From Ochotona curzoniae (taxonomy: Eukaryota; Chordata; Mammalia; Lagomorpha; Ochotonidae), in assembly GCF_017591425.1 (NCBI RefSeq), contig NW_024465434.1, positions 248,001 to 312,000 of the forward strand: a stretch of 64,000 bases of DNA, written 5' to 3'. Shown here one piece after another: positions 5,986-54,920 of this stretch (its first letter is position 1; the number at the start of each line of letters is the position of its first letter). A program made the translations under genes and the position numbers. A model generated the notes under the pieces. The model did no database searches. It saw only the letters and a program-made list of their open reading frames with translations, and was not told the origin of the DNA.

Positions 5986-6150
5986 GCTTCTTCCCAGTCT
6001 GCAAGACTTGGGCCTACCTCTTCTGCTTTCCCCGGAGTATTAGCAGAGAGCTGGATTGGAAGTGAGGCAGCTGGGAATCAAATTGGTTCCCATACGGGAT
6101 GCCAACATTGCATTAGGCAGCTTAACTTATTACACCTCAAGACTGGCTCC
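5986..6150 (-). repeat. Old SINE, right part, at the left edge of unit A
   Basis: From GCTTCTTCCCAGTC to GACTGGCTCC. The uninterrupted unit B counterpart is at 33,478-33,770. Confidence 0.6.
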
Positions 6151-6317
6151 AGTTAATTCATTAAATAATTAATTAATCCAAAATATCTCTTCACCTATGT
6201 TGTGCTGGGAAGTTCCTTCAAACAAACCAACAAAAACACAAGAAGAAAGTAATGTGTGAATCCTATTAAGTTTCTTTGTCTTGAACTCAGAATATTTTTT
6301 TCCTTTCATTTTTTTTT

Positions 6318-6600
6318 TAAAAAAACAGATTTTATTTATTTTTATTGGAAAGGGTATTTACAGAGGGAAGGAGAGACAGAGAGATCTCCCATCCACTGGT
6401 TTACTGCACGGATGGTCACAATGGCCAAAGCTGAGTCAATCAGAAGCCAGGAACTTCCTTGGTGTCTCCCACGTGGGTACAGGGCCTCAAGGACCTGGGC
6501 AATCCGCCTCTGCTCTCCCAGGCCATAAATACAGAATGGGATTGGAAGCAGAGGAGCTGGCACACGAGTTAGTGCCCATATGGGCTGCTGCTGCTGGCAG
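6318..6600 (-). repeat. C-type SINE (shared with unit B, 33,935)
   Basis: Starts with GATTTTATTTATTTTTATTGG and ends at TAGTGCCCATATGGGC. Both duplication units carry it. Confidence 0.8.
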
Positions 6601-6799
6601 AGAGAGAAAATTAGCTCTTTGAGCCCTCATGTTGGTCCTAGAAAGTTTTCCTTTATGCTGTCCTACAGGATACTTGCTATTCCAAACTGCATTCAAATGG
6701 TTTTGAGGTTTCCCATGAGTTTCACTTGACATTTGGAACATTTTTCCAGATCAGAAATCTTTTGAAATCAATTACACAGAATGTAGGTGTTACAGTTAA

Positions 6800-7090
6800 A
6801 TTATATGGGCAGAAAGGATCTGGTGTTTGGCAAAGATACCACTTGGTTGGTATGCTCATGTCTGGCTGCATTTCTGATTTCAGCTCTCTGCTAATGTACA
6901 CCCTGGGGGCACTAGCTGGTGGGCTTATGTGTCTGGGTGCCTTTCACCTACATGGAAGATGCAGACTGAGTTCCAGGCTCCTGGTTTCATCCTTGTTGCA
7001 CTCTGAGTGCTGTGGGGAGTGAAGCAGCAGATGGCGTGTTTCTCTCCATTGGTCGGCCACTCTGACTTGCGAGTAAAATGAAAAGAAATG
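6800..7090 (+). repeat. Old C-type SINE (shared with unit B, 34,400)
   Basis: Recognised from TCTCTGCTAATGTACACCC, GAGTGAAGCAGCAGATGG and the A-rich end. Confidence 0.5.
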
Positions 7091-7902
7091 AGTTTTTTTA
7101 GTTTAGCTGAGTGGAAAGAAAAGTACAATCCTCACTTAGCTACTAGAATGCTTCCAGTTTTCTCCCCCATAATTGTCCTGTGAAGTTTTGGAAAATACTG
7201 TACTTGTTAAACCACAGAAGACAGGGAGGAACAGAGTCATAGGTCAAGGTATTAGCAACTACCACTGCATTTTTACCCTTTCTTTAGGAGAGTCAAAAAA
7301 TATGGAAAATGGTCTACTTCTAGCTTATCTAGATGACAAGAAGACATGAGTAAATTTAGCTCCCGTGTTGCTGTCCTTTGGCTCCCACACCACTGGCTGC
7401 CTGGCAGAATGAGTCACTTGCTGCTCTGTGTCCAGGCTTAGATACATGTATGGCCACAGCCCTGCTCTCACTAAAAGGTTGTCACTCAAGTTCCTTTACC
7501 TGTGTTGACAGAGCTACACAGGGCAGGCTGGGCATATCAGTGTGCATGTTGCTGGGACACCAGGCTGTTTCCATGGCAGCAGGCCACTGCTGTTTGTTAC
7601 TCTCTTGACAAGTGCATACACCTGTTCCTTAAGAAATATGCTTGTTTTCCATCACTATGAAGCAAATACTGATTAGGAAATGACACAGCTGCATGGTGGC
7701 AAATTCTCTGTAGATTTCAGGAGGAATAACATCAAATACAACTGCATGTCTGTCATAGCAAATCTTCCTATGTAATGAAATATTTATATGTTTGACTTTC
7801 TATTGTGCTGTTTCTAGCCCATCATATGCCACAAAGGATTGGAATCAACAAAAGATTTCTGAAACCACCCTCCCATCTGCTGCACATGGTACTCATGAGG
7901 TG
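7091..7902. other. Unit A unique sequence
   Basis: No gene recognised. About 380 bp (7,360-7,740) are identical to unit B. The short open frames here have no start or domain support. Confidence 0.4.
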
Positions 7903-8158
7903 AGTATTTGTTTGTTTATTTATTTATTTGAAAGGCAAAGGAACAAAGAAATAAATAAGGAGAGCCTGAGTGAGAGAAATCTTCAGGCTACAAGTTTACT
8001 CCCCAAATGACTATAAAGGCTGGGGCTGTCTCAGGCCAAAGCCAGGAGACTGGAGCACCATGCATGTTTCTGGATTGGAGGCAGAATGGCTGAGACTTGA
8101 ATTGGCATTCCAATATATAGGATACTAATGTGGCAAGTGATGGCTTAATGCCAGCCCT
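7903..8158 (-). repeat. Old C-type SINE (shared with unit B)
   Basis: TTGTTTATTTATTTATTTGAAAG at the left and GGCTTAATGCCAGCCCT at the right. Confidence 0.6.
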
Positions 8159-8199
8159 GAGTGAATTTGTGGGTTTTTATTGTTGTCTTTGTTGCTATT

Positions 8200-8518
8200 A
8201 GGGCTGGATGTTATGGCTCAGGTGCTAAATTCTCTTCTTGCAAGTGCTATGGTTCCCTATGGGCGCTCCTTTGTGTCCTGGCTGCTCCACTTCCCATAAG
8301 ACTCTCTGTTTATGGCCTGGGAAGGTAGTAGAGGATGGCTCAAAGCTTTGGGAGCCTGCACCCACAGCCTTTAGACCCTACACCAATGGGAGACTCAGAA
8401 GAAGCTTCTGGCTCTTGGCTTCAGATTGACTGAGCTCCAGTTATTACAGCCATTACAGCCGTTTGGGGAGTGAACTAGCAGATGGAAGATCTTTCTAGGT
8501 TTTCACTTTGTAAATTGA
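8200..8518 (+). repeat. C-type SINE (shared with unit B)
   Basis: GGGCTGGATGTTATGGCTCAG at the start and GTGAACTAGCAGATGGAAG near the end. The 3' tail is degenerate. Confidence 0.7.
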
Positions 8519-8535
8519 ATTTGGCTTTGTGGGAA

Positions 8536-8548
8536 TGGCAGAGTTAGA

Positions 8549-8598
<50 letters not shown>

Positions 8599-8862
8599 GA
8601 GCGCTTCCACCTGCTGGTTTACCTCCCAAATGGCTGCAATGGCCAGAGCTGGCCAGTCTGAAGTCAGGAGCCCGGGGCTTCTTCCAGGTCTCACACGTGG
8701 ATGCAGGATCCAGGAACTTGTGCCAGTCTTCACTGCTTTCTCAGGCCACAGGCAGGGAGCTGGGTCAGAAATGGACTAACCTGGGCTTGAATGGTCATCC
8801 GTATGGCATGCTGGCACTGCAGGTGAAGGCTAAGCCTGATGCACCACCCTGCTAGCCTCCTG
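8536..8862 (-). repeat. C-type SINE with expanded GA tract
   Basis: Typical SINE body (CCACCTGCTGGTTTACC to ACCACCCTGCTAGCC). Its GAGAGA region is expanded to a microsatellite. Confidence 0.75.
8551..8602. repeat. (GA)n microsatellite
   Basis: About 50 bp of GA with one interruption (GACAGAGAG). The unit B counterpart at 36,180-36,219 is shorter and interrupted by AAAG, so it mutated after the duplication. Confidence 0.9.
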
Positions 8863-9179
8863 AGTGAGGCTTTCTGTGAGTGGTCTTTCAAAGATTACAT
8901 ATGATGGCTTCCTGGTAAAGAAGAAATGATAATTCCCCATCTCTTCCTCTTACTAGTATCCAGTTGTCACCACAGTCACTGCTGCGACTGAGTATAACTG
9001 CTAGCCAGGAGCAAGACTTGAGTGACAGCACAAACTGTAAGGAGGCCCTCACTTCCAGGGCCGTGAAAATGCACTGCTGCCCCCAAGCACCCAAAGGCAG
9101 TCCCAAGGGCCACAGTCTGTGTGAGCAACAGTTCCTGCTATTGCTGAAACCACTGGTTCCTAGGGTTCTTACTCTGTGA

Positions 9180-9699
9180 ACTCAGCTTTACTTCTCTTGT
9201 TTCCCTAATGTTCTAAGATGAGCATAAATGTGTGGGAACTGGTATGAAGAACTATTGACCTGACAGATACTGCCCTATTGAGAGCCATCCTGCTTCTCTT
9301 CCTACTGATTGTCGAAGCATGGCCCCTTGTCTTCCAGCAAATGCCTGTGGTCTAGAGACACTGTTCCTTAAGGTGTCTCCGCAAATTCACCTGGGACTTT
9401 AAGATGAATGTGGTTCAGTTTAAAGAGGGAACTTCAGCAGCACATACAGTTCCCAAGTTTTGAAAATAAAAGTTGCACTCCTCATAATGTTTCCCTTCTG
9501 TGACATTATAAACTTCTTAGGCTGAGTATTAGACACCTGAGAATTTGACTCAGATGAAGACTCCATAACCAAGGAGACTGGATCACGAAGATGTGGTGGC
9601 TCAGAGGAGCCAGAGCTCTAGCTTCAGAGAGGAAAGAGACTGTTCTTTGCACATGGTCTCTGCAATGTCTGCAAGCAGAGCTCAGAGAGCCTCAGGGAT
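9180..9699. other. Unit A unique sequence
   Basis: No recognised gene or repeat. The flank at 8,905-9,215 is nearly identical to unit B. Confidence 0.4.
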
Positions 9700-10030
9700 G
9701 TTTTTTTTTTTAAGATTTATTTATTTATTTATTGGACAGTCAGATATACAGAGAGGAGGAAAGACAGAGAAGATCATCTTCCATCCGATGATTCACTCCC
9801 CAAGTAAGCGCCACGGCCGATGCTATGCTGATCCAAAGCCAGGAGCCTCTTCCGGGTCTCCCACATGGGTGCAGGGTCCCAAAGCTTTGGGCCATCTTCA
9901 ACTGCCTTCCCGGGTTCACAGGCAGGAAGCTGGATGGGAAGCCGGGCTGCTGAGAATAGAACCAGCGCCCATATGGGGTCCAAGGCATGCAAGGCGAGGA
10001 CCTTAACCACTGCGCCATCACGCTGGGCCC
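9700..10030 (-). repeat. C-type SINE, young (shared with unit B)
   Basis: Full length, from a T run and AAGATTTATTTATTTATT to CGCCATCACGCTGGGCCC. Confidence 0.9.
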
Positions 10031-10289
10031 TAGGCATGTTCTTTTGCCTAGTCAGTTCATCTTTGAAATGTTTTGTTTTGGGTGATCTGTCAGCTTTTCT
10101 CATCCTGCTTCAGTTAGGAGGAACACTTGCCTGAGGCCTTTTGGCCGCTCACCCAACACAAAGGACAGTGTTCACCTGTTGGGAGTGTGGAGGATGGAGA
10201 AAGCCCTCTCCTTGTGACAGGGTGGCTCCATCTAAATGTGTTGCCTTGCCTCAAGATTCTCTTAAGTGTTCTTGGTTTCTTTGAAAGAG

Positions 10290-10548
10290 AATTCCATTCC
10301 CCCATTTGTTGTTTCCTTCTCCAAGTGCCCCAAATTGGCCAGCACAGGGCTAGGCTGAAGCTAGGAGTATGGAACTGGAGCAGAGTTGCCAGAGACCCAA
10401 GGACCTGAACCATCACTTGCTGCCTCTCAGCATGTGCATTAGCAGGAAGCTGGTTTTGAAGCAGAGCAGGCACTCAAACCCAGGCACCCTGTGTGGGATG
10501 TGGGCATCCCGAGCAGTGTGTTCACCATTGTGCTGAACACGTACCCTT
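10290..10548 (-). repeat. Old C-type SINE (shared with unit B)
   Basis: Marked by GCAGGAAGCTGGTTTTGAAG and CACCATTGTGCTGAACACG. Confidence 0.55.
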
Positions 10549-11162
10549 CAGGATTCTGATTTGCTTCACTTTACTGCTTTCTTGATCATGGCCATTGAAC
10601 CTTCACATTAGGTTTAGATCCACTTTCTCTTTTACCTGTACTGTATGGTAGTCCTCTCGTATTTGCAGGGGAAATGTTCAAAGACTCCCAGTGAGTACTA
10701 CTGAAACCACAAGTAGTACTGAACCCTAGATATGAAATGTATTTTGCTTTGCATATATAGATGTGATGAAGTTTAAATTTATCAGTTAGGCATAGTAAGG
10801 CTTTAACAACAATAACAAAATAGAGCATTTTACAACAATATACTGCAGTAGAAGTTATGTGAATATAGAATCTTCCTAGCTTGCTTACTCCCAAAATATC
10901 TGACTGTAGTTTTGGTTTTTTAATTAAAGGAAGCATCTAATGCTTTTTTTTTTTTTTTGTTCATATATGATTGCTAACATCTCTACTCTTTGGCTCGAGC
11001 ATTATTAAATAAAATAAACTTGAAATTAAACTCTCTGATAGTATAATAGGTGACCTGACCTGATAACTGAGAGAGTACCAAGTAGTGACTAACAGGCAGG
11101 TTGTAAACACAATATAGATTGGTTGGAAGAATGGAACAATGTAGCGTTAATGTTTCATCAGC
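10549..11162. other. Unit A unique AT-rich sequence
   Basis: Nothing recognised. A T run lies at about 10,945-10,959, shorter in unit B. Confidence 0.4.
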
Positions 11163-11505
11163 CCAGGAGAGGCGAGTTGGCCTAGTGGCTAAAGTCCTTG
11201 CCTTGAATGCACCGGGATCCCATAAGGGCGCCAGTTCTAATCCTGGCAGCTCCACTTCCCATCCAGCTCCCTGCTTGTGGCCTGGGAAAGCAGTCGAGGA
11301 TGGCCCAAACCTTTGGGACCCTGCACCCTTGTGGGATACCCGGAAGAAGTTCCTGGCTCCTGGCTTCGGATCGGCATAGCATCGGCCGTTGCGGTCACTT
11401 GGGGAGTGAATCATTGGACTGAAGATCTTCCTATCTCTCTCTCCTCCTCTCTGTATACCTGACTTTGTAATAAAAATAAGTAAATCTTGAAAAAGAAAAA
11501 GAAAA
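11163..11505 (+). repeat. C-type SINE, donor of the left half of the unit B hybrid
   Basis: Full length. Its first part (TTGAATGCACCGGGATCCC) matches the left half of the hybrid at 38,775. Confidence 0.88.
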
Positions 11506-12290: not shown

Positions 12291-12329
12291 AAGATACACA
12301 TTTAAATGTCAGGACTCTATAGGAGTAGA

Positions 12330-12530
12330 TAGCATCAGGAGTAGGTGCAGGTCATTGAACACATGCAGCCATGTGAAAAACTTGGAGGAAGCTCCAGGCT
12401 CCTGGCTTCCACCTGGTTCAGCTCTAGTGTTGTGACCACTGCTGTGTGAACCAGCAGACAGAAAGATCTCTCTCTCTCTCTCCCTATTTTCTATATAAAT
12501 CTGAATTTTTATTTATACGAAAAAGTTACA
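12330..12530 (+). repeat. SINE 3' part
   Basis: The unit B version (39,935-40,250) has a longer left part, so the unit A copy lost its 5' portion. A short CT-rich run lies at 12,467-12,483. Confidence 0.6.
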
Positions 12531-12556
12531 TTGATCTTTTAAAAAAGAAATCCTTT

Positions 12557-12832
12557 TGATAGCAGATTACAAAGAGAGGAGAGAGAGAGAATGATCTTTC
12601 ATCTGCTGGTTCACTCTGACCTGGCAGCAAGGACCAAACTCTGCCAGACTGAAGCCAGGAAACACAAGTTTGTCTGGCTCCCCCACGTGGGTGGCAGGGG
12701 TCCAAACTCCTACTTCATCCTTACTGCTTGCCATGCACGTGAGCAGGGAGCTGGACTGCAATGCGGGGAAGCGGGACTAGACACAGTGCCCATGTGGTTG
12801 CTTGACCTGTCATGGCACAAGGTTGGTCCCCA
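12557..12832 (-). repeat. C-type SINE (shared with unit B)
   Basis: GAGAGAGAGAATGATCTTTCATC at the left and GGCACAAGGTTGGTCCC at the right. It lies just beyond the 3' end of chimeric gene A. Confidence 0.7.
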
Positions 12833-12949
12833 TAAATTCCTACTGTCTGTGACTCCCTCTCCATCTACCATTCCACACCCACCCTCTAGCACGAATTAGC
12901 TCCTGGTGCGTCTACTGAGTGGACCATTGGCAGCCTCAATAAATAACCT

Positions 12950-13776
12950 CCAAACTGCTATAGAAAGTTTAAAATTTTTATTAGAACTTTGTGCACATAA
13001 ACTTCAATACAAATGGGAATTTCTTGAGTCTCTGGAAAGTGTGTCCCTCCTCCTGAGAGATCTTGTCCAACTGTTAGTATTATGGTGTACTCTTTGCCTG
13101 CATTTTCTTTAAGAAGTTCTGTAGACAGTCTTTGCTAAATTACAAACATTTCCCCTTAGTCAGTCACTAAGCAACATGGTGATGTCTCTGTTTCTTTGAA
13201 GGCAGAGAACTCTAAATGTGCTTTTACTCATCATCTTCGAAATCCTCTTCAAGTGCTCCTCTTACACTAAATTTTATGAGGGAACAATTATTTCCATATC
13301 TTCAACTTCACTATCACATTTAACTAGTATGTCTTCAATTGAAAAATTGTTTTAGTTGACCACTCCACTTTTTCTTTCTTTACTTGTTTCTTTTCTTAAA
13401 AACAAATTGCACATCATTTGTCATTTTCAATTTGCAAAACTCCCCAAATTGTGCTACATTGAAAATAATGTAACAAAGCTTGATAGATGTTCTGAGGGAA
13501 CAAATTTCAATGAGCAAAAAGCAGAGAGCCTTATATAAAACTCAGCTGCCACAAATGTAGACAATTCTATCAGGCTTGTTAAGTGACAAAACAATCACAT
13601 AAGTGCTGACAGTCTCCATCTGAAAACCTTTGTTCTCTGAGTTGCCTTTCAGGGTGCTTGGTTGTTTGGTGAGTGAAGGGGAGAGCAGTGCTGATGTTAA
13701 GCCGGGCTTCCCTACAGTGCTTTGGGAGCAGGTGTATTGTCAGCAGCACCCTGGGTGGCCATGGCCTCTGTGCCAT
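12950..13776 (-). other. 3' untranslated region of copy A, YBX1-like
   Basis: Downstream of the stop, the sequence still resembles the YBX1 mRNA tail. CCCGGCTTAACATC matches the sequence around the YBX1 stop codon, and the GATAGAATTGTCTACATT region (near 13,550) matches the middle of the YBX1 3'UTR. An AATAAA on the minus strand at 12,977-12,982 sits in YBX1-like context (TAATAAAA followed by TTTTAAACTT). The middle third (about 13,100-13,450) is not recognisable and may contain inserted sequence. This supports origin of the C-terminal part from a processed YBX1 mRNA. Confidence 0.55.
12977..12982 (-). terminator. Candidate polyadenylation signal of copy A (AATAAA)
   Basis: First canonical AATAAA after the YBX1-like 3'UTR, in sequence similar to the native YBX1 signal. 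The counterpart for copy B is at 40,702-40,707. The actual cleavage site is unknown. Confidence 0.45.
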
Positions 13777-16647
13777 TTAGTGTCCAAGGCTGTGTGGCCG
13801 GCTGCATGGGGAAGAGCTGAGAGGTGGCTGCTGGCCTTGGATGTTTTCACCCTGATCTTGGCTGTGCACTTGATGCTTTTCTGCAGCTGGGCCCTGGGTC
13901 GCTTTCATCCCTTCACCCAACAGTGGTTTGTTGGAATCCTGCTGGTAGGGTCTTGGTTGGTAGCAGGACAAGAGCCTTGGGCAGCGTTGGGGCCAGCAAG
14001 GTTGGGCCTGGTTGTCATACATGCTGCTGGGGTACTCAGTGTGGCTCTGCATGGTTTGGCGCTGAGGAGGCCTGCATCGTGGCAAGCAGCGGGAACGGCA
14101 CCACTGGGCCACGTATCTGCTGCCCCTCACTGCAGCTCCCCTGGGGCCAGTGACGTTGGCCGCCTGTACACCCTTCTGGCCCTCCTCCACATCAAACTCC
14201 ACGATTTCACCGTCTGCTAGGCTCGGCAGGTAATACCTGCCAGTGTAACTTTTAATAGCGGTGTGATGAACAAAGATGTCTTGTTGGATATCATGGCGCC
14301 TGATGAAGCCATATCTGGCCTTGACATTGAACCACACCACGGTTCCCAGAACCTTGGTGGCGAGCAGCTTCTTGTGCCCTGTGGTGGAGAGACTGGGCTC
14401 AGCAGGCAGCAGCTTGGGTTCCACCTTGGCCTCAGCCTGGCCACTCAGGCTGGCAGTGCAGGTGGCTAGAGTAGGCAATGGCATCTGTGCTTCCCCACAG
14501 GGTGACTCGATCACAGGGCCAGCAGCACTGGGGGTGCTGCTCAGGGCTCTCAGGGAGCTGCTGTCTGCTCCTGCTTCTGATTGAACGTCAGCCTGTCCAT
14601 CTTCCTCCTGCAGGGCTTCAGGCACGTGAGACTCTTGGGACTGTGCAAGATGCTGGTGGTCCCTCTGTGGCTCCTGGCTTAATTTGTCTTGTGAATGCTT
14701 CACTGCACTCTGCAGGGCCACTTCCTTCAGGTGATCTTGTTGCACGGCCAGCAGCATTTGCTCTCTCTCCTGGTTGAACTCTGGACTCTTCTTCAGCATG
14801 GACTCTGTGGCACTCAAGAGCTGCTGGCATGTGTCTTCTTTTTCTATCAGCAGCTGTGCCCCAGAGGGGACTTCCTCCCTTAGTTCACAGGCAGCCACCT
14901 CCTTCTCTGGGAAGGACTTGGGCATCATCATGTTGGAGTCTTCGAATGCGTTCTTCTCTTCTTGAGCTCTTTCAAGGCTTTTCTGCTGTTCTTGTTGCAG
15001 TCTGGCTATATCCATCTGCAGTGTGGACACTGCTTCTTCTAATTTTCTCACGGATTGCTTTAAAAGGCTGTTCTCCTCCTCTTTCTTGAGAAGGGTGTCT
15101 TCCAGTGTGTGGACCTGGTGAGTTTTGGCTTTCACAACCAGCCCTTTTGCTTTCACAACTTTCTCTAGTGCATGTTGCTGCTTCTTCAGTTTTCTGAGTT
15201 CTGCAGACTTTTGGTCCTCCTCTGTCTCCAGGGGGATGTTCTCAGTGGCGGAGTGACAGAGTTTCCTCATGATTTTCTTCCAAGTGTTATTCTCTTTCTC
15301 TTTCTCTGCAAGCTGCTTGTTCAGAGAACATAGTTGCCTATTTTTGGCATTGATGAAAATGTCTTTACCTTTTATTAATTTTTGCCGATGTGCCTGGTCC
15401 TTCTTCAGTTGTCTGATTTGTGAAGACAAAGACATCTGCTGGTTTTGTGCCTCCAGTGTGGTGGTGTCAGGCTTTGAAGAAGGCATTCTGGTTATTTCTT
15501 CCTTGAGGAGCCTGAGTGTGCTTTCCTTGGTTACTAGAGATGGTTCCAGTGTTTCCGTGGCTTCTTCAAGGCCTTGGGCAGGCTCCCCCAAGGGAACAGA
15601 CTTTGTCAGCTCTGCTGACTCTTTTGTGAATCCTCCCTGATTGGAGGCCTCTAGGAAATCTTTCAGGTGTTCTGGAAGATCTTCCTTGGTTGAGAATTGT
15701 CCAAGATTTTCAATGACTTGGGCAAACTCCTGTTTGAACATTGTGGATGTGATGTCAGTCTCTTGGACATTTTGTGCCAAGTCGATGTCTTCTGACTCTA
15801 GGCCAACGTGGTTTCCTTCCATGTTGGGCTGTGTACCAATCTTTCTAAACACATGTTCAAGACACACTGACTCTCGAAGCCTCTTTATGGTTTGCTTCAA
15901 CGTCTTGTTCTGCTGCTGGATCTCTGTCAGATGACTCTGCAGGGAACGTACCTGATGAATTTTCACTGTGAGAAAGAGCTCTTTGCCTTCCATGAGCTTC
16001 TCTAGACGATCTTCCTTCTTCTTTATTTGCTTGAGTTCTAGGAACATGTCTTGATATTTTCTCTCCACTTTGGTTTTCTGCATCATAGCATGAGATAGTG
16101 TCTCGATTCTGGCCTGGAGGAGCCGGATGGTTTCTTCTTTTGTCGCCAGTGATGATTTGAGCACTTGATTCTCTTGTCGGAGACGCTGAAGTGTCTCTCT
16201 CCAGGACTCAGGTTTTCTTTGATCAAGAAAGGCAAGATTGCGAGAGGCCTCCAACACTCCCTTGAGCTCTCTGAGTAGATCTCCTTTGTTGGAAATCTCC
16301 CCAGTGGTTTCCAGGATGTGGTCAGCTCCCTTTACATACCTTCCAGCTTTGGCTTTGTTGTCTCCATCAGCCAAGTCTGTGTTGAGCAATCCAGATTCAT
16401 TCCTGATTTCATCCAGTGTTTTTGGTACCGTAGGTTGAATGGCAGTGTGCTGGTTGTTGTGCCGCTCCCATGCCTGACACCATGCTTCCAGGTCTCTGGT
16501 GAGACTGGTCAGCAGGTCACCTTGACCTCTTTGAATGTTGTTCTTCGGTACGCCTTCTGGTATATATTTGTAATAGCCACCAATGTCCTTTGCCAGTCCT
16601 AGGTAATGGCCTAGCCTAGAGCCTAGGCCAGGAATCCCCGAGGACAT
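13777..16647 (-). CDS. Chimeric TRIP11-like coiled-coil / YBX1-like cold-shock-domain protein, copy A
   Basis: Single uninterrupted 956-codon frame with no introns. Residues 1-25 (MSSGIPGLGSRLGHYLGLAK) resemble the start of the golgin TRIP11/GMAP-210, which in that family is a Gly/Ser-rich amphipathic lipid-packing sensor. Residues about 108-690 are coiled coil matching the late part of TRIP11. One TRIP11 segment is present three times: compare LEKLMEGKELFL (215-226), QKLIKGKDIFI (422-432) and LEKVVKAKGLVV (494-505). Residues 607-640 (QQLLSATESMLKK ... QEREQMLLA) match TRIP11 closely. Residues about 760-836 are a cold-shock domain with WFNV (772-775), RYGFI (778-782) and IFVHH (791-795), so the aromatic RNA-binding residues W772, F781, F792 and H794 are kept. 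The tail keeps the YBX1 motif QGQQPP (937-942). The TRIP11 C-terminal ARF-binding region is absent. The start is favoured because it matches the TRIP11 start, has G at -3 and lies 96 bp after a TATA box. Function is unknown; a membrane-tethered nucleic-acid-binding protein is inference. The family assignment is strong, expression is unproven. Confidence 0.82.
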   Translation of the reverse strand: MSSGIPGLGSRLGHYLGLAKDIGGYYKYIPEGVPKNNIQRGQGDLLTSLTRDLEAWCQAWERHNNQHTAIQPTVPKTLDEIRNESGLLNTDLADGDNKAKAGRYVKGADHILETTGEISNKGDLLRELKGVLEASRNLAFLDQRKPESWRETLQRLRQENQVLKSSLATKEETIRLLQARIETLSHAMMQKTKVERKYQDMFLELKQIKKKEDRLEKLMEGKELFLTVKIHQVRSLQSHLTEIQQQNKTLKQTIKRLRESVCLEHVFRKIGTQPNMEGNHVGLESEDIDLAQNVQETDITSTMFKQEFAQVIENLGQFSTKEDLPEHLKDFLEASNQGGFTKESAELTKSVPLGEPAQGLEEATETLEPSLVTKESTLRLLKEEITRMPSSKPDTTTLEAQNQQMSLSSQIRQLKKDQAHRQKLIKGKDIFINAKNRQLCSLNKQLAEKEKENNTWKKIMRKLCHSATENIPLETEEDQKSAELRKLKKQQHALEKVVKAKGLVVKAKTHQVHTLEDTLLKKEEENSLLKQSVRKLEEAVSTLQMDIARLQQEQQKSLERAQEEKNAFEDSNMMMPKSFPEKEVAACELREEVPSGAQLLIEKEDTCQQLLSATESMLKKSPEFNQEREQMLLAVQQDHLKEVALQSAVKHSQDKLSQEPQRDHQHLAQSQESHVPEALQEEDGQADVQSEAGADSSSLRALSSTPSAAGPVIESPCGEAQMPLPTLATCTASLSGQAEAKVEPKLLPAEPSLSTTGHKKLLATKVLGTVVWFNVKARYGFIRRHDIQQDIFVHHTAIKSYTGRYYLPSLADGEIVEFDVEEGQKGVQAANVTGPRGAAVRGSRYVAQWCRSRCLPRCRPPQRQTMQSHTEYPSSMYDNQAQPCWPQRCPRLLSCYQPRPYQQDSNKPLLGEGMKATQGPAAEKHQVHSQDQGENIQGQQPPLSSSPCSRPHSLGH
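14140..14370 (-). other. Cold-shock domain of copy A
   Basis: Codons about 760-836. In Y-box proteins this five-strand OB fold binds single-stranded RNA or DNA through aromatic residues of two RNP motifs. Here the RNP1-like RYGFI and RNP2-like IFVHH are present. The lysine that precedes WFNV in YBX1 is valine (V771), and the YBX1 pair Asn-Gly before YGF is Ala-Arg. The end of the domain (VEFDVEEGQKG ... ANVTGP) is well kept. Confidence 0.85.
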
Positions 16648-16715
16648 GGCTGTGGGTCACTTAACTGCGCTGGAGTGCTCAGAGAGCATCCAGTTCAGCC
16701 GGACAGTCCCACAAA
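16648..16715 (-). promoter_or_regulatory. 5' leader of copy A
   Basis: Predicted untranslated leader between the expected transcription start, about 30 bp after the TATA box, and the ATG. It contains no upstream ATG in a good context, apart from an ATG in the segment TGGATGCTCTCTG. In copy C the corresponding ATG is in frame with the main ATG. The start site is inferred from TATA spacing only. Confidence 0.5.
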
Positions 16716-16742
16716 GTGTCGCCAGAGCAAGGCATGCTGGGA

Positions 16743-16751
16743 CTTATATAG
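16743..16751 (-). promoter_or_regulatory. TATA box of copy A (CTATATAAG)
   Basis: Reverse-complement reading gives CTATATAAG, 96 bp before the ATG. The same motif sits at the same distance before copy B (44,451-44,459) and copy C (51,884-51,892). About 110 bp from TATA to ATG are roughly 87% identical between A and C by eye. Confidence 0.75.
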
Positions 16752-16775
16752 GCAGCTAACAATGGCCGTTGGTTA

Positions 16776-16789
16776 GCAACAGCTGTTGC
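16776..16789. promoter_or_regulatory. 14-bp perfect palindrome with central E-box, promoter of copy A
   Basis: GCAACAGCTGTTGC lies about 25 bp upstream of the TATA box. It contains the E-box CAGCTG flanked by GCAAC/GTTGC half-sites. The palindrome is repeated in copy B (44,484-44,497). In copy C only one half (GTTGCTAACCAAC) survives. A transcription-factor site is plausible but not shown. Confidence 0.45.
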
Positions 16790-16799
16790 CTAGAGATTC

Positions 16800-17620
16800 T
16801 GGAAGTCAGGCACGGCCCTCTGATGCCCACTAGCCCCTTGACCCTCTAGGCTTCTCTTCCCCATTGCCACACTGACTCCCAGCATGACCTGAACATTTCC
16901 CCAATACAGTGTCCTTCCCCTGCAATGTATGAACAAGTATCAGTATGAAAAACACAGGGACGGCCATTCTTGATCCACACCCACGACGTCTCTATTTTGG
17001 TGAAACCAGTGAGAGGTCTGAGTCCTGGATCCCTTCCAGAGTCCGTCGTCCCATTCATGTGTGCTCTGAGAGGTGTCCAGTGAAGGCTCAACTGTCTGGA
17101 CTTCTCCTCACTTGTGTGTGGGCAGGTTGGAGTTCTGACTCTTGGCCTCTGCCTGTTTCCACTCAGTGGTTTTAGTGGAGAGTGAGCCCTTAGCAGATGC
17201 CAGCTCGTGTTCTCTTTGCTAATGCTTTCGTATAGTTAAAAGTAGTAAACAAAATGAAAAAGAATGAAATCATGTATTTCTGCAGAATCTTTTCATACTA
17301 AAAGTGATTGCATCCCAGGTTATAAATTTGTTGTCAACTCATAGATGCTCACATTGCCTAGGCTGAGATAATTCAACACAGTGCAAAATGTTGTGCTTCA
17401 TTTCTAGTCCACGGACCTCAAAGTATTACTTGTAGAAGTATTTAGACTAAAAAGATTCATGTAATATTTGGGTTTTTGTTAGCTATTTTATCCCAATCCT
17501 TTGATTTTACAAATTTACTAATGTGTTTGAAAGAGTTACTGAGACAAAGAGAGACAAAGAGGAAAATGAACTTTCTGTGGTAATTTATTTACTTTTAAAG
17601 ATCTCAGTCTTTTTTCTTTT
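16800..17620. other. Region upstream of chimeric gene A
   Basis: The first 100 bp or so continue promoter homology with copies B and, weakly, C. Beyond that nothing is recognised. Confidence 0.4.
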
Positions 17621-17624
17621 TTAA

Positions 17625-17770
17625 GAATTCTTTATTTTGATTGATCAGTCATATTTTTACAGAGGAGAGACAGAGAAAAAGAGCTTCCATCTGCTGGTTC
17701 ACTCCCCAAGTGTCTGCATCGCAAGCAGCTGAGCCCATCAAGAGACTGAGCTAGTAAGTTCTTGGTTTCC
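17625..17770 (-). repeat. Partial C-type SINE (shared with unit B, 45,335)
   Basis: TCTTTATTTTGATTGATCAG, then CTTCCATCTGCTGGTTCACTC. The SINE right half is missing. Confidence 0.6.
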
Positions 17771-17829
17771 TTTAAAAACAATTTGTTTCCAATAAAAACA
17801 AATAAATCTTTAATAATAGAAAACTAAAT

Positions 17830-18341
17830 TTCAAAAATGGAATGGAGAAAGGAAGCATTTGACCTTTCAACATATTTTACTATCCTAAAAATAGCTTCAT
17901 TGATTGATTGACTCATCTTAACATTCATTTATTCACTTAATATGAAATGATTGCGTGTTCCAGGGGCTGTCATTTCCTTGGGATACCTGTCACTCTCACT
18001 CAGTGGGATGAATTTCCCAGCTACTGTACCTCCCCCTAAGTCTGTTATGCTTTGATTGGGACCAAAGTTGTTGTTATCAGAGGAATTTTCTGAGATTGTA
18101 ATGTAGACAGCCTACAATGTGCTTAGTACTAGATACAAAGCAGCTGCACAACGGTAAGACAGAACCATGCATTGTTGGTGTTATTTGAATTCCTAGTGTT
18201 ATTATAAAGGGCCAGCTTTGGGATTTATAGTCTTTAGGTTTGATAATCACCATTTTTGTTTACTCAAGTTTCTGTTTTACATTTCTGTCATTCACACAGA
18301 AAAGACATGGAAGGAACACTAACATATTCCATCATTGGTCT
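17830..18341. other. Right end of unit A, no recognised feature
   Basis: Shared with unit B up to the breakpoint. Contains no open frame of note. Confidence 0.4.
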
Positions 18342-33477: not shown

Positions 33478-33770
33478 TTTAAGAATTATTTATTTCAATA
33501 GCAAATGCAGAGGGAGAGATAGAAATCTTCCATCTGCTGGCTCACTCTGCAAATGACTACAGTAGCCAAGGCTAGACCAGGTTGAATCCAGGAGCCAGAT
33601 AATTCGTCTGGATGTCCAGGAATTTGGACCAATATCTGCTGCTTTCCTTGGAGTATTATCAAAGAGCTGGATTGGAAGTAAGGCAGCTGGGAATTGAACT
33701 GGTTCCCATATGGGATGCCAACATTGCATTTGGCAGCTTAACTTATTACACCTCAAGACTGGCTCCAGTT
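33478..33770 (-). repeat. Old C-type SINE spanning the left edge of unit B
   Basis: Uninterrupted version of the SINE at the left edge of unit A. High identity to A starts about two thirds of the way through it. Confidence 0.65.
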
Positions 33771-33934
33771 AATTCATTAACTAATTAATTAATCTAAAAA
33801 TCTCTTCATCTATGTTGTGCTGGGAAGTTCCTTCAAACAAACCAACAAAAACACAAGAAGAAAGTAATGTATGAATCCTATTAAGTTTCTTTGTTGTGAA
33901 CTCAGAATATTCTCTTCCCTTCCTTTTTTTTTTT

Positions 33935-34215
33935 TTTAAAAAAAGGATTTTATTTATTCTTATTGGAAAGGCACATTTTCAGAGAGAAGGAGAGGCAGAG
34001 AGAAAGATCTTCCGTTTACTGGTTCACAAATGGCCACAATGGTCAGAGCCAGGCCAATCAGGAACAAGGAGCTGCCTTGGTGTCTCCCACGTGGGTGCAG
34101 GGCCTCAAGGACCTGGGCAATCCACCTCTGCTCTCCCAGGCCATAAATACAGAATGGAATTGGAAGCAGAGGAGCTGGCACACGAACTAGTGCCAATGTG
34201 GGCTGCTGCTGCTGG
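33935..34215 (-). repeat. C-type SINE (unit B counterpart of 6,318)
   Basis: Same insertion as in unit A, so it predates the duplication. Confidence 0.8.
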
Positions 34216-34399
34216 CAGAGAGAGAATTAGCTCTTTGAGCCCTCATGTTGATCCCAGGAAGTTTTTCCTTTATGCTGTCATACAGAATACTTGCTATTCC
34301 GAACTGTGTTCAAATAATTTGAGATTTCCTATAAGTTTCAGGTGATATTTTAAACATTTCTAGATCAGAAATCTTCTCAAATCATTGTCACAGAATGTA

Positions 34400-34690
34400 G
34401 GTGTTGCAATTAAATTATATGGGCAGAAAAGATCTGGTTGGCAAAAATACCACTTGGTTGGTATACTCATGTCTGGCTGCATTTCTGATTTCAGCTCTCT
34501 GCTAATGTACACTCTAGGGGCACTAGCTGGTGGGCTTATGTGTCTGGGTGCCTTTCACCTACATGGAAGATGCAGACTGAGTTCCAGGCTCCTGGTTTCA
34601 TCCTTGTTGCACTCTGAGTGCTGTGGGGAGTGAAGCAGCAGATGGCGTGTTTCTCTCCATTGGTCTGCCACTCTGGCTTGCAGGTAAAAT
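34400..34690 (+). repeat. Old C-type SINE (counterpart of 6,800)
   Basis: As in unit A. It is followed by a longer T run at 34,704-34,719. Confidence 0.5.
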
Positions 34691-35539
34691 GAAAAGAAAT
34701 GAGTTTTTTTTTTTTTTTTAAGTTCAGTTCAGCTTAGTGGAAAGGAAAGTACAATCCTCACTTAGCTACTAGAATGCTTCCTGTTTTCTTCCCCACAGTT
34801 GTCATATGAAGTTTTGGAAAATACTGTTGAACCAAAAAAAGTACTTGTTAAACCAAGGCGGGAAAGAACAGAGTCATAGGTCAAGGTATTAGCTACTGCA
34901 TTTTTACCCTTTCTTTAGGAGAGTCAAAAAATATGGAAAGGGGTCTACTTCTAGCTTATCTAGATGACAAGAAGATATGAGTAAATTTGGCTCCCGTGTT
35001 GCTGTCCTTTGGCTCCCACACCACTGGCTGCCTGGCAGAATGAGTCACTTGCTGCTCTGTGTCCAGGCTTAGATACATGTATGGCCACAGCCCTGCTCTC
35101 ACTAAAAGGTTGTCACTCAAGTTCCTTTACCTGTGTTGACAGAGCTACACAGGGCAGGCTGGGCATATCAGTGTGCATGTTGCTGGGACACCAGGCTGTT
35201 TCCATGGCAGCAGGCCACTGCTGTTTGTTACTCTCTTGACAAGTGCATACACCTGTTCCTTAAGAAATATGCTTGTTTTCCATCACTATGAAGCAAATAC
35301 TGATTAGGAAATGACACAGCTGCATGGTGGCAAATTCTCTGTAGATTTCAGGAGGAATAACATCAAATACGACTGCATGTCTGTCATAGCAAATCTTCGT
35401 ATGTAATGAAATATTTATATGTTTGACTTTTCAATTGTGCTGTTTCTAGCCATCATATGCCACAAAGGATTGGAATCAACAAAAGATTTCTGAAACCACC
35501 CTCCCATCTGCTGCACATGGTACTCATGAGGTGAGTATT

Positions 35540-35785
35540 TGTTTGTTTATTTATTTGAAAGGCAAGGGAACAAAGAAAGAAATAAGGAAAGCCTGAGTGA
35601 GAGAAATCTTCAGGCTACAAGTTTACTCCCCAAATGACTATAAAGGCTGGGGCTGGCCCAGGCCAAAGCCAGGAGACTGGAGCACCATGCATGTTTCTGG
35701 ATTGGAAGCAGAATGGCTGAGACTTGAATTGGCGTTCCAATATATAGGATACTAATGTGGCAAGTGATGGCTTAATGCCAGCCCT
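35540..35785 (-). repeat. Old C-type SINE (counterpart of 7,903)
   Basis: The TTTA tract at its start is shorter than in unit A. Confidence 0.6.
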
Positions 35786-35824
35786 GAGTGAATTTGTGGG
35801 TTTTTATTGTTGTCTTTGTTGCTA

Positions 35825-36130
35825 TTAGGGCTGGATGTTATGGCTCAGGTGCTAAATTCTCTTCTTGCAACTGCTGTGATCTCCATGGGGCACTCCTTTG
35901 TGTCCTGGCTGCTCCAATTCCCATTAAACTCTCTGTTTATGGCCTGGGAAGGTAGTAGAGGATGGCTCAAAGCTTTGGGAGCCTGCACCACAGCCTTAGA
36001 CCCTACACCAATGGGAGACTCAGAAGAAGCTTCTGGCTCCTGGCTTCAGATTGACTGAGCTCCAGTTATTACAGCCATTACAGCCGTTTGGGGAGTGAAC
36101 TAGCAGATGGAAGATCTTTCTATTTTTTCA
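35825..36130 (+). repeat. C-type SINE (counterpart of 8,200)
   Basis: Begins GGGCTGGATGTTATGGC, with several small differences from unit A. Confidence 0.7.
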
Positions 36131-36164
36131 CTTTGTAAATTGGATTTGGCTTTGTGGGAATGGC

Positions 36165-36180
36165 ATGGCAGAGTTAGATG

Positions 36181-36225
<45 letters not shown>

Positions 36226-36480
36226 CTTCCACCTGCTGGTTTACCTTCTAAATGGTGGCAATGGCCAGAGCTGGCCAGTCTGAAGTCAGGAGCCAGGGGC
36301 TTCTTCCAGGTCTCACACGTGGATGCAGGATCTAGGAACTTGTGCCAGTCTTCACTGCTTTCTCAGGCCACAGGCAGGGAGCTGGGTCAGAAATGGACTA
36401 ACCTGGGCTTGAATGGTCATCCGTATGGTATGCTGGCACTGCAGGTGAAGGCTAAGCCTGATAGACCACCACGCTAGCCT
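36165..36480 (-). repeat. C-type SINE with GA tract (counterpart of 8,536)
   Basis: The GA tract at 36,180-36,219 is shorter than in unit A. Confidence 0.75.
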
Positions 36481-37322
36481 CCTGAGTGAGGTATTCTCTG
36501 AATGGTTTTTCTAAGATTACATATGATGGCTTCCTGGTAAAGAAGAAATGATAATTCCCCATCTCTTCCTCTTACTAGTATCCAGTTGTCACCACAGTCA
36601 CTGCTGCGACTGAGTATAACTGCTAGCCAGGAGCAAGACTTGAGTGACAGCACAAACTGTAAGGAGGCCCTCACTTCCAGGGCCGTGAAAATGCACTGCT
36701 GCCCCCAAGCACCCAAAGGCAGTCCCAAGGGCCACAGTCTGTGTGAGCAACAGTTCCTGCTATTGCTGAAACCACTGGTTCCTAGGGTTCTTACTCTGTG
36801 AACTCAGCTTTACTTCTAATGTTTCCCTAATGTTCTAAGACGAGCATAAATGTGTGGGAGCTGGTATGAAGGACTATTGACCTGACAGATACTGCCCTAT
36901 TGAGAGCCATCCTGCTTCTCTTCCTACTGATTGTCTAAGCATGGCCCCTTGTCCTCCAGCAAATGCCTGTGGTCTAGAGACACTGTTCCTTAAGGTGTCT
37001 CCGCAAATTCACGTGGGACTTTAAGATGAATGTGGTTCAGTTTAAAGAGGGAACTTGAGCAGCACATACAGTTCCCAAGTTCTGAAAAAAACAAGTTGCA
37101 ACCTTATAATGTTGCCCTTCTGTGACATTATAAACTTCTTAGGCTGAGTATTAGACACCTGAGAATTTGACTCAGATGAAGACTCCATAACCAAGGAGAC
37201 TGGATCACGAAGATGTGGTGGCTCAGAGGAGCCAGAGCTCTAGCTTCAGAGAGGAAAGAGACTGTTCTTTGCACATGGTCTCTGCAATGTCTGCAAGCAG
37301 AGCTCAGAGAGCCTCAGGGATG

Positions 37323-37650
37323 TTTTTTTTTTTTAAGATTTATTTATTTATTTATTGGACAGTCAGATATACAGAGAGGAGGAAAGACAGAGAGGAAGAT
37401 CTTCCATCCGATGCTTCACTCCCCAAGTAAGGCCACGGCCGATGCTATGCTGATCCAAAGCCAGGAGCCTCTTCCGGGTCTCCCACATGGGTGCAGGGTC
37501 CCAAAGCTTTGGGCCATCTTCAACTGCCTTTCCGGGCCACAGGCAGGGAGCTGGATGGGAAGCTGGGCTGCTGAGATTAGAACCAGCGCCCATGTGGTGT
37601 CCAAGGCATGCAAGGCAAGGACCTTAACCACTGCGCCATCACGCCGGGCC
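37323..37650 (-). repeat. C-type SINE (counterpart of 9,700)
   Basis: Full length. It ends CCATCACGCCGGGCCC. Confidence 0.9.
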
Positions 37651-37909
37651 CTAGGCATGTTCTTTTGCCTAGTCAGCTCATCTTTGAAATGTTTTGTTCT
37701 GGGTGATCTCTCAGCTCTTCTCATCCTGTTTCAGTCAGGATGAAAACTTGCCTGAGGCCTTTTGGCCGCTCACCCAACACAAAGGACAGTGTTCACATGT
37801 TGGGAGTGTAGAGGATGGAGAAAGCCCTCTCCTTGTGACAGGGTGGCTCCATCTAAATGTGTTGCCTTGCCTCAAGATTCTCTTAAGTGTTCTTGGTTTC
37901 TTTGAAAGA

Positions 37910-38166: not shown

Positions 38167-38169
38167 CTT

Positions 38170-51660: not shown

Positions 51661-51883
51661 GGGAAGGAGCACCAGAAGATCAGTCTTTTTATACTGACCT
51701 TCTGTGTTTTTTATACTAACACACGCTCACACATTCTGGGTTTGATGGGACCTGTGCCTGGTACTGGGGAAGAGGGGCCAAGAGGCCCATAGGCCTTTGG
51801 AGGAGCAGGGTGGAAGCCATTGCCCGAGTTCTAAGCACTCCCTGGCTACAGCTTGTTGCTAACCAACACCCATTGTGAGCTGC

Positions 51884-51892
51884 CTATATAAG
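51884..51892 (+). promoter_or_regulatory. TATA box of pseudogene C
   Basis: CTATATAAG, 96 bp before the homologous ATG. The sequence from here to the ATG is better conserved against A/B than the coding part. Upstream, TTGTTGCTAACCAAC (near 51,853-51,867) preserves half of the palindrome found in A/B. Confidence 0.65.
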
Positions 51893-51945
51893 GCCCAGCA
51901 TGCACTGGTCTGGTGACACTTTGTGGGACTGTCTGACTGAACTGG

Positions 51946-54920
51946 ATGCTCTCTGAACACTCCAAACCAGTTAAGCAACCTACAGCCATGTCATCAGTGG
52001 TGCGTGGCCTAGGCACCGACCTAACCCACTACCTGGGACAAGCAAAGGACATTGGTAGCTATTTAACATCTATACATTTAAAAGGCATGCAGAGGAAGCA
52101 CCTCCAAGGATTTGAAGATGACATGTTGACACATATTTGCCTTGACATGGAAGCACGCTATCAGGCATGGGAGCTATGCAACATCCAACAGACTGCCAGT
52201 CAACACACTTTACCCCCCCCCCAAGATGGACAAAATCAAAATAGAATGTGAAATCTGTACTAACTCCACACATAGTTGTGGAGACGACAAAACAAAAACC
52301 GGACTGTTCAGAAACAAAGTGGCCCCACACCTGGAATCCCTTGGGCAGCTTTCCACCAAAGAACAACTCCTCAGAGAACCCAAAGTGGTACCCGAGGCCA
52401 CCAACAACCTGACCTTTCCTGATGAAAGAAAACCTGTGGCCCGCAGTGAGCCTCCTCGGTTGCTCCTACAAGAGAATGAAACCCTAAAAGCCTCCCTAGC
52501 CACCAAAGAAGAAACAATCAGGCTCCTCCAGGAAAGGATCCAGACACTGTCTCAGGCCGCGACAGACCACACAACCGGAGACAAAATCAATTGAAATAAT
52601 AAAACTTAAGAAGAAACAACAGATCTTACACAACCTAGTGAAAGGCAAAGAGCTCCTTCTGACAGCCAAAAAGAAGGAGGTGTGCTCTCTGCAGAACCAG
52701 CCAGCAGAGAGTCAGGAGGAAAATAAGATGCTGAAACAATCTCTGTCAAAGTTAAATGAGTCGGGGAGGCTTCAAAAGGAATTTGGAAGGTTTTACACAC
52801 AGCTCTTCCTTGACACAGACCAAGTTGAGCAAGACACAGATGACACCGACTTGACACAAAATGCCCAAGACACTAACATCAGACCGAGAAAGTTCAACGA
52901 TGAATTCTTCCATGTCCTCAAAATGCTTGGCAAGCTTTCTTTGACCAAAGAAGACCTGCTCAGACACCTCAAAGCCTTGCTAGAGGCCTCCAACAGGAAA
53001 GCATTCTCAGAAGAGTCTCCGGAATTCACAGAACCTGCTACCTCACATCAATTCCTCACAGGAGCAACACAAAAACCAAAGCTAAAATCACTCAAAGCAA
53101 ACGAAGCCACAATCCAGATCCTCCAGGAAGAACTGCACACGATGGCTTCTCTGAAGGCTCACACCACAAAAGTAGACACACAACAGCAGCAACTGTCTTT
53201 AGAAAACAAGAAACTAAAGGAGAAACTGGAGTATTTACAGAAGCTACTAAAAAGCAAAGATATTTTGATGAATGCCGAAAACAGGCATCTGCGCTCTCTC
53301 AACAAGACTCTTGCAGAGAAAGAGAAGGAAAGTAACACTTTACCGCAAACCGTGAGAAAACTCTCACTCCATGACGGACACCACGACCCTGGAGACAGAA
53401 GACGACCAGAAACCTTCAGAGATCAGGGATCTGGAGGAGAAACAACACGTGTTAGAGAAACTAGTGAAAGGGAAAAGGCTTGCTGTGAGAGCCAAAACTC
53501 AACAGTTACACACCATGGAGGACACTCTTGTCCAGAAAGAGGAGGAGAACACCATTTTGAAACAGTCTGTGACCACATTAGAAGAGGCAGTGTCAACACT
53601 GCAGACGGAGATTCGGAAACTGAAACAAGAGTGTGGGAAAAGACTCCACACAGCTCAGGAAAACATGAAGGCACTCCGAGACTCCAACACCAAGATGCTC
53701 ATGTCCTTGCAAGAGAAGGAGGTGGCTGCCTGTGCACTGAGAGAGGAGCTCCACACTCGGAAGTAGTTGCTGAAAGAAACAGAAGTCAGATCCCAGCAGC
53801 TCTTCAGTGCCACAGAGGCCATCCTCAAGCAAATCCTGCTGTTCCAGCAAGAGAGAGACGCAATGCTGCTGGCCATGAGACAGAAACGCCTGCAGGAACA
53901 GGTCCTGCAGAGCACACTGCAGAGCTTACAAGACATGTTCAGCTAGGGGCAGGATGGGGACCACAACCGTTTTCCACAGTCCCAAGATTCTCACCTGCCT
54001 GAAGCCCTGCCCAAAGCAGATGGACTGGCTGCAGTTCAAGCAGGAGTGGGAGCAGAGAGCAGACCCCTAAGACCCCTGTGTAGCATCGCCAATGATGCTG
54101 GCCAGGGAACACTGACACCCTGTGGGGATCTGCAGATAACACAGCCGGCCCTGGCCACCCGTAGTGTCACCGTGAGAAGCAAGAGCAAAGCCGATGCCGA
54201 GACCCAGCAGCAGCTGCCCACCAAGCCCGAGCCCTTTACAATGGGGGACATAAAGCTGATCACGACCAAGGTTCGAGAAATTGTTAAATGGTTCAACATC
54301 AAGACCAGATATGGCTTTATCAGCCAACAAGACACCAAGGATGGCATATTTGTCCATCACCCCGCCATTCAGAACCACAACCCCAGGAAGCACCTGCCCA
54401 GCCTAGGAGTGGCGAGGTTGTGGAGTTTGACATGGTGAAGGGCCAGGAGGGTGTGCAGGCTACCAACGTCACAGGCCCTGGAGGAGCTGCAGTGCGGAGA
54501 AACAGATATGTGGCCGAGTGGAGCCATTCCCAGTGCTATCCACAGCATAGGGCTCCTCGTTGCCATCTCCCACAGGGTCACCTCACCAGTGACACTGAGG
54601 GCTCTGACAGCACTTGGGATGGCCAGGCCCAACCTCACTGGCCCCAAGGCTACCACGATGCTACCTGCGGAGACCCAACTGGTACAGAAGGCAGGAGCCC
54701 CACACTCTGGTGTGGGGTGAACAGGTGGATGGTGCCCATGGCCATGGCAAGCAAGCCCCAAGTGCACACGCAACACCAGGGAGAAGACACCCAAGGCCAC
54801 CAGCTGCCTCGAAGGTGCTCCCCATGCAGCAGGGCACATAGTTCTAAACACCAAGATGGCACACAGACCAGGGCTACCCAGCATGCTGCTGACAATCCAC
54901 CTGCTCCCCAAACAGTGTAA
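51946..54920 (+). pseudogene. Decayed third copy (C) of the TRIP11-YBX1 chimeric gene
   Basis: Same architecture as A and B on the opposite strand, clearly older. The homologous start is ATG 51,988 (MSSVVRGLGTDL). An in-frame ATG at 51,946 also exists. The frame breaks at a C run near 52,212-52,220, near 52,590 (after QAATDHTT), near 53,365 and in the cold-shock domain near 54,405 (one base missing). In-frame TAG stops lie at 53,764 and 53,944. Recognisable blocks are TKEETIRLLQERIQTLS (near 52,505), LLRHLKALLEASN (near 52,955), LEKLVKGKRLAV (near 53,455), FQQERDAMLLAMRQK (near 53,845) and the cold-shock motifs KWFNIKTRYGFI and IFVHH (54,285-54,360). It keeps ancestral YBX1 features that A and B lost: the Lys before WFNI, NPRK after the second RNP motif, and a YBX1-like C-terminus (QDGTQT ... 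NPPAPQT). Not expected to make a full-length protein. Confidence 0.85.

Follow-up and report, generated by a model that had tools for sequence, protein, structure and literature searches.

The window is a 64 000-nucleotide stretch of the genome of the pika Ochotona curzoniae (NCBI RefSeq assembly GCF_017591425.1, contig NW_024465434.1, positions 248,001 to 312,000 of the forward strand), and the gene in question is a long intronless frame that joins a coiled coil derived from the golgin gene TRIP11 to most of the Y-box gene YBX1. The first-pass annotation had counted this frame exactly, at 956 codons, and all of the motifs that it quoted are present; its coordinates also hold, with the strand corrected to minus. 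The plus strand over the same interval has stops throughout the frame read. By our own arithmetic, an open frame of this length would occur with a chance of about 1e-20 under equal codons, and is therefore not due to chance. The gene is not single, as had been supposed, but one copy of what we call type A in an amplified family, and the features of this copy and of its two relatives in the window are collected in Table 1.

Table 1. Features of the chimeric gene and its relatives, in window coordinates.
Feature	Position	Strand	Basis or remarks
Type A chimeric gene, copy 1, intronless, 956 codons + stop	13777..16647	-	Open frame; ATG at 16647, stop ending at 13777
Promoter and start block	16594..16818	-	Common to type B; homology edge ~16803-16818 in most B loci
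Promoter and start block, portion also common to older chimeras	up to ~16765	-	
TATATAA box	16750-16744	-	Copy alignment
Putative transcription start	near 16720	-	Inferred from TATA box
TRIP11-derived start	16605..16657	-	DNA match, 75% over 53 bases, E 5e-4, to start of full-length C906 TRIP11 retrogene
TRIP11 segment, repeat 1	15859..16200	-	Residues 150-263
TRIP11 segment, repeat 2	15253..15585	-	Residues 355-465
TRIP11 segment, repeat 3, and following coiled coil	14578..15336	-	Repeat within residues 438-543; measured TRIP11 match to residue 607; end at 690 taken from first-pass annotation
YBX1-derived cold-shock domain	14107..14382	-	Residues 756-847; Pfam CSD 768-834
YBX1-derived C-terminal tail, fast evolving	13780..14106	-	Residues 848-956
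First AATAAA past stop, candidate poly(A) signal	12977..12982	-	794 bases downstream of stop
Second type A copy, unbroken, 953 codons	41494..44355	-	Lies in a block that shares 97.5% identity over 6 kb with the block around copy 1
Third relative, broken by stops and frameshifts	51844..54917	+	73-74% DNA identity in matched pieces

A search of a protein collection with the window protein (P0001) gave three matches among 8000 scored candidates. One is a 954-residue protein, 97% identical, on a 3703-base contig tagged 'lgn', which we take to denote the Logan assemblies; the contig is close in length to the transcript expected from the TATA box to the AATAAA (approximately 3.75 kb), and this may point to RNA as its source. 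Another is a 589-residue Ochotona princeps protein named 'thyroid receptor-interacting protein 11-like', which aligns at 85% over 62% and has the same cold-shock domain. The third match, P0004, has 1029 residues and is presumably a piece of TRIP11, probably from a fish.

A Pfam scan of the window protein, up to E 1, returned CSD as the sole family, and the best PDB match was YB-1, over residues 755-847 (E 2.9e-32, compared with 2.7e-30 for the best YBX2 chain), so that by both comparisons the domain lies nearest to the YBX proteins. Between YBX1 and YBX2, the two parents compared, the last 200 residues descend from YBX1. The YBX1 part is C-terminal, and not a head as had been proposed. A scan of the pika's own genome with the YB-1 domain (94 matches, all 124 candidates scored) revealed many intronless-looking copies, among them a broken YBX1 copy on contig C765 (L043) whose cold-shock domain can be aligned with those of the chimeras; the alignment also takes in a TQQ...KP.TTG stretch ahead of the domain for the chimera on contig C1 (E 2e-4) and the tail for a chimera on contig C277. 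These alignments indicate that most of the YBX1 frame was taken into the fusion. Y-box proteins have a C-terminal domain of alternating basic and acidic clusters, and the type A tail is homologous to that of YBX1 yet degraded.

The genome was also scanned with P0004 (57 matches, with 45 of 1829 candidates scored). The top place among the matches listed was a 1040-residue open frame on contig C351 whose edges we read as splice-like; next came four places on contig C906 with unbroken frames of 1603-1749 residues, which are possible working full-length TRIP11 retrogenes, and then mainly the chimera family itself. The C906 places lie at 8250335, 8460166, 10481139 and 10505854, and two of them form an inverted pair approximately 22 kb apart. 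The retrogene that we examined (L037) begins MSSWLGSIGSGLG and extends past both edges of the C351 exon. The identification of C351 and C906 as TRIP11 is supported by construct letters given in the excerpted text of PMC2744908, which match the C351 exon at 65% over 120 residues; the ALPS start from the same excerpt is 86% identical to the C906 retrogene over 36 residues and 54% identical to the window protein over 24 (E 0.002).

Coiled coils align easily, and the identity of the window protein to TRIP11 is just 30-34% over 135-170 aligned residues; residues 1-690 might thus belong to another, unrelated coiled coil with only a compositional likeness to TRIP11. We regard this as very improbable and have rejected it. 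In BLASTP, residues 1-690 scored 58.9 bits against the C351 exon and 62.0 against P0004, compared with best scores of 38.9 and 36.6, respectively, in 2000 heptad-preserving shuffles for each target (4000 in all), although the 41.6 bits obtained with the full-length C906 retrogene are barely above the best shuffle. No coiled coil in the PDB matched residues 1-700 better than E 0.1, and the start of the window gene matches TRIP11 in both protein and DNA, the DNA match to the C906 retrogene taking in bases just 5' of the ATG. In addition, a 116-residue piece of TRIP11 aligns over its whole length with the C1 chimera (33.6%) and also with residues 150-263, 355-463 and 476-543 of the window protein, while the C1 segment itself matches that protein at 150-258, 355-465 and 438-543; a TRIP11 segment of about 115 residues therefore occurs three times in the window protein. 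On these alignments the residues ahead of the YBX1-derived last 200 are of TRIP11 descent, as had been claimed. They do not, however, amount to most of a golgin: what can be matched to TRIP11 is the start, the threefold segment and the stretch after its third repeat, to about residue 607.

The intronless frame contrasts with two parents that carry introns, as had been stated: the TRIP11 exon on C351 has splice-like edges, and a YB-1-type domain is split into pieces, which we read as exons, on C752, C292 and C1352, any of which could be YBX1.

A genome scan with the window protein returned 57 matches, with 48 of 376 candidates scored, and the locus counts are accordingly lower bounds. It revealed at least 23 type A loci, at least 17 of them without any stop over their full or nearly full length, together with at least 15 loci of a second type, B, or of an early form of it, and at least six incomplete or degenerate loci. 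The P0004 and YB-1 domain scans added seven loci (C1, three on C277, C1358, C452:310240 and C682:634275), and by our own tally over the three scans the family numbers at least 51 loci in the assembly. The sequences examined comprise 14 full-frame type A loci, six of them from one array, two broken or split type A loci (L035 and L036), 15 B loci, C1, a single C277 copy and all of the six degenerate loci except the one located in the window. The array (C682:1-63000) consists of five direct type A copies approximately 12.1 kb apart and one inverted copy, the coding DNA of all six being identical, and such near-identical tandem and inverted copies make it ampliconic; it occupies the first 63 kb of a 40-Mb contig and reflects either recent amplification or a matter of assembly. 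An assembly error at the TRIP11-YBX1 junction was also considered and is very unlikely, the same junction being found in at least 17 unbroken loci and in both database proteins.

Within the window, the two type A copies belong to repeated blocks, 6019-11326 with 33635-38933 (93.6%) and 12328-18341 with 40054-46044 (97.5%). The 3' flank of copy 1 contains, at 13200-13280 on the minus strand, the end of a short acidic frame, RGALEEDFEDDE, followed by a stop, which may stem from a third gene.

Type B frames, which reach 1491 residues, have lost the first half of the cold-shock domain wherever they extend to it, leaving a remnant from about YLPSLADGE to SRYVAQ. Between the coiled coil and this remnant, long Gly/Ala tracts are found in L014, L016, L017, L019 and L021, compared with about 20 residues in other B copies; in L019 (2458-6933, minus strand) the tract is an in-frame array of 6-base period with approximately 1.8 kb of coding DNA, and array lengths vary greatly among B loci. 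Not all type B copies are intact, as the frame is disrupted or shifted in L012, L018, L020 and L022, and L019 lacks the usual ATG. L018 (C682:8.3 Mb) is the first branch of B in the tree described below and still has the cold-shock domain in another frame, which indicates that the loss of the half domain came later. The chimeras on C1 and C277, with frames of 839 residues (stop to stop) and 809 residues, respectively, each combine a single TRIP11 segment with a cold-shock domain and a tail from YBX1; over 3.7 kb, upstream DNA included, the two share 74.8% identity. From the match of the single segment to TRIP11, we infer that this is the older state and that C1 and C277 are older than the tripled lineage. 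Coding identity between the window gene and B over about 14610-15385 of the window is 73-75%, and a tree on the last segment separates A (99/97), B (96/96) and C1 with C277 (100/99) as supported groups; its 24 rows are ten A, 11 B, C1, C277 and TRIP11, with C1/C277 and TRIP11 flagged by the program as long branches, and it leaves out L010, L011, the identical L003-L007, L012, L022 and L036.

The promoter region was aligned for 18 of 33 A, B and older copies (seven A, nine B, C1 and C277). A box lies 91-110 bases 5' of the start, the usual ATG being lost in L018 and L019, and it reads TATATAA in 16 of the 18 copies and TATGTAA in the C682 representative and L035. Against all nine B copies, the window gene is 90-96% identical in the 50 bases ending in the box, compared with 46-51% just upstream, 71-99% in the leader and 72-87% in the first 60 coding bases. 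Because the TATA box and its surroundings lie upstream of the putative transcription start and are nevertheless common to the copies, the family spread as DNA; as single-segment chimeras that look older also exist on other contigs, duplication at the DNA level is the most likely origin of the window locus. In one type B locus, L020 (C1215:782000-791900), the leader is 99% identical to type A, which indicates that gene conversion between the types has happened. A bacterial promoter scan of the start region, a type of scan not relevant here, gave no match.

Selection was assessed by Nei-Gojobori counts on four chosen independent pairs of type A copies. The cold-shock domain shows 27.0 synonymous changes over 258 sites and 16.0 nonsynonymous changes over 846, a ratio of nonsynonymous to synonymous change (pN/pS) of 0.18 (P = 1.9e-8), and is thus under purifying selection, with the signal coming mostly from one pair; over all 36 pairs of nine copies, which are not independent, the ratio is 0.19. 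The coiled coil and the linker give 0.59 (P = 0.006) and 0.28 (P = 0.017), respectively. Between types A and B the ratios are 0.57-0.64 at synonymous distances of 0.65-0.72, and between C1 and C277 the ratio is 0.57 at 0.45. The excerpted text of PMC7226217 names W65, F74, F85, H87, K64 and K118 of YB-1 among the residues needed for RNA contact, and, by our reading, type A keeps W65, N67, Y72, F74, D83, F85, H87, T89, D105 and K118 of the contact residues given there.

Several observations weigh against a selected, protein-coding family. Six of the 23 type A loci are broken, two by one stop and four by a frameshift near residue 643. The whole-frame pN/pS is just 0.57 (P = 1e-6), while the N-terminus (0.66, P = 0.29) and the tail (0.91, P = 0.64) are not significantly below 1. 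In the domain, 21 of the 27 synonymous changes come from the one pair that includes the recombinant-looking L034, and without that pair the ratio, by our own subtraction, is about 0.25 on 11 changes. Type A changes K64→V, N70→A and R69→K; both older chimeras have W65→C, and C1 also has F74→L and D83→N; type B has dispensed with an intact cold-shock domain altogether. The two TATGTAA copies include the representative of the six-copy array, the 50 bases ending in the box are only 55-59% alike in C1 and C277, mainly through a gap, and the likeness of A and B in the promoter core may come partly from gene conversion. The broken loci and the ratios, together with the degenerate relatives and the evident conversion in L020, might be explained by a mostly dead family of segmental duplications, the frames being intact through youth and the conserved parts through conversion or chance. 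We nevertheless think this unlikely, because the excess of synonymous over nonsynonymous change in the domain arose between copies that were already fused, and because both partners have kept open frames in comparisons whose synonymous distance is about 0.45 (C1-C277) or about 0.7 (A-B). L034 itself (C1382:6089250-6093450, type A) is far more diverged in its domain and tail, the last third, than in its front, as after recombination or gene conversion.

With a probability of roughly 0.85, a figure that excludes function, we favour a real, selected and protein-coding family of TRIP11-YBX1 chimeric retrogenes of the following origin. Intronless TRIP11-derived and YBX1-derived frames have been joined into one reading frame, and the joined gene, with a TATA box about 100 bases ahead of its start, has been copied many times as DNA. 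In one lineage (C1 and C277) the TRIP11 segment is single and in the other it is tripled, the latter being divided into type A, with a complete cold-shock domain, and type B, in which the first half of that domain is gone and Gly/Ala tracts have been added. Of the earlier proposal that two mRNAs were joined by retroposition, the join of two parents stands, but a joint mRNA is just one of several routes. There is about an even chance that, compatibly with the origin just given, a YBX1 retrocopy was inserted within or beside a TRIP11 retrogene, or that the template was switched during reverse transcription: full-length TRIP11 retrogenes and YBX1-like retrocopies both exist in the genome, and any TRIP11 matches in the 3' flank of the window copy are no larger than chance would give.

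Compared with TRIP11/GMAP-210, the window protein has a homologous start and one homologous coiled-coil segment of about 115 residues, in triplicate, whereas most of the golgin, constructs of which run to residue 1979 in the excerpted text of PMC2744908, is not recognisable. According to that excerpt, GMAP-210 is brought to the Golgi by its ALPS start together with a C-terminal region that has the GRAB (Arf-binding) domain. Pfam, up to E 1, found no GRAB domain in the window protein, and its first 38 residues contain six charged residues against two in the TRIP11 ALPS construct (moment 0.55 against 0.50). With the GRAB region missing and the ALPS start altered, Golgi tethering by type A is not expected, and type A is probably no longer a working golgin. 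In C1 and C277 (L039 and L040) the mean hydrophobicity of the N-terminus over 19 residues is 1.20-1.24, compared with 0.58 in the window protein, and this N-terminus is possibly a membrane segment or anchor in place of the lipid-packing motif.

Compared with YBX1, type A keeps most of the frame and a cold-shock domain with its aromatic quartet, while K64, R69 and N70 are changed, the tail is degraded without significant constraint and the domain sits behind a coiled coil. Replacement of K64 blocks RNA binding according to the excerpt of PMC7226217, and the changes in type A suggest that its RNA binding may be weak or altered; nucleic-acid binding by the domain is plausible, with a strength or preference that may differ. 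Tentatively, type A could act as an RNA scaffold of the germ line: a coiled-coil oligomer would display several YBX1-type domains and so gather single-stranded RNA, in messenger ribonucleoproteins. The male germ line would be the most probable site, as expected from other amplified families, whose young genes frequently show expression there. Type B keeps the coiled-coil repeats, has lost the RNA-binding core and has gained Gly/Ala tracts, and it is conceivable, but improbable, that A and B are opposing partners in one germline conflict, in which A would be the multivalent RNA-gathering scaffold, B would act as a decoy in A oligomers or block the turnover of A, and the copy numbers of both would race upward.

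Linkage to the X or Y chromosome was considered and is not shown, because no MAGE, ZFX-type or ZFY-type match lies in a contig with type A or B copies. Those to MAGE are on C53, C1345 and C1380, the last with one broken family relative, and ZFX/ZFY-type matches (our own gene labels) on C53, C1345 and C272; no family match on C53, C1345 or C272 is among those listed in the scan with the window protein. In a NAP scan none of the contigs that carry type A or B copies was matched, although C525, which has a broken relative, was. The third ZFX/ZFY-type set, at C272:25712-32593, lies on a small separate contig and suggests ZFY, and thus a male animal. Outside Ochotona, a type B query found no relatives and a C277 chimera query found just three cold-shock proteins (from Pomphorhynchus laevis, Albula glossodonta and one source without a name), both in weak searches that each scored only approximately 8000 candidates and missed P0002, a certain relative of fitting length.

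Chimeric retrogenes are already known as a kind, an example being the hominoid PIPSL (PMC2773790, in excerpt), which is likewise a retroposed in-frame fusion of two parent genes. The parents of PIPSL, as described in that excerpt, were linked in tandem and co-retroposed, whereas the pika TRIP11 exon lies on C351, where the only YB-1-like match is a piece in a 164-residue frame 0.8 Mb away; in addition, the pika family has been amplified and split into types. In its many near-identical copies with open frames it resembles the co-amplified mouse X/Y families Slx/Sly and Laidx, as far as the excerpt of PMC7263670 describes them, but its type A and B contigs differ from those with MAGE, ZFX-type and ZFY-type matches. 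In the open-licence PMC literature we found no description of the TRIP11-YBX1 combination, in agreement with the first-pass annotation, nor of a protein that couples a golgin-derived coiled coil to a Y-box domain; the sole text with the long TRIP11-like name concerns ant queens. A single pika genome appears to hold an unusually complete record of the birth of a gene, with an intron-bearing parent, unfused full-length retrogenes, single-segment chimeras, the tripling of the segment, amplification and a branch losing half of the domain, and it would allow one to test, in a natural setting, whether a young amplified family experiences selection for the RNA-binding domain that it has captured.

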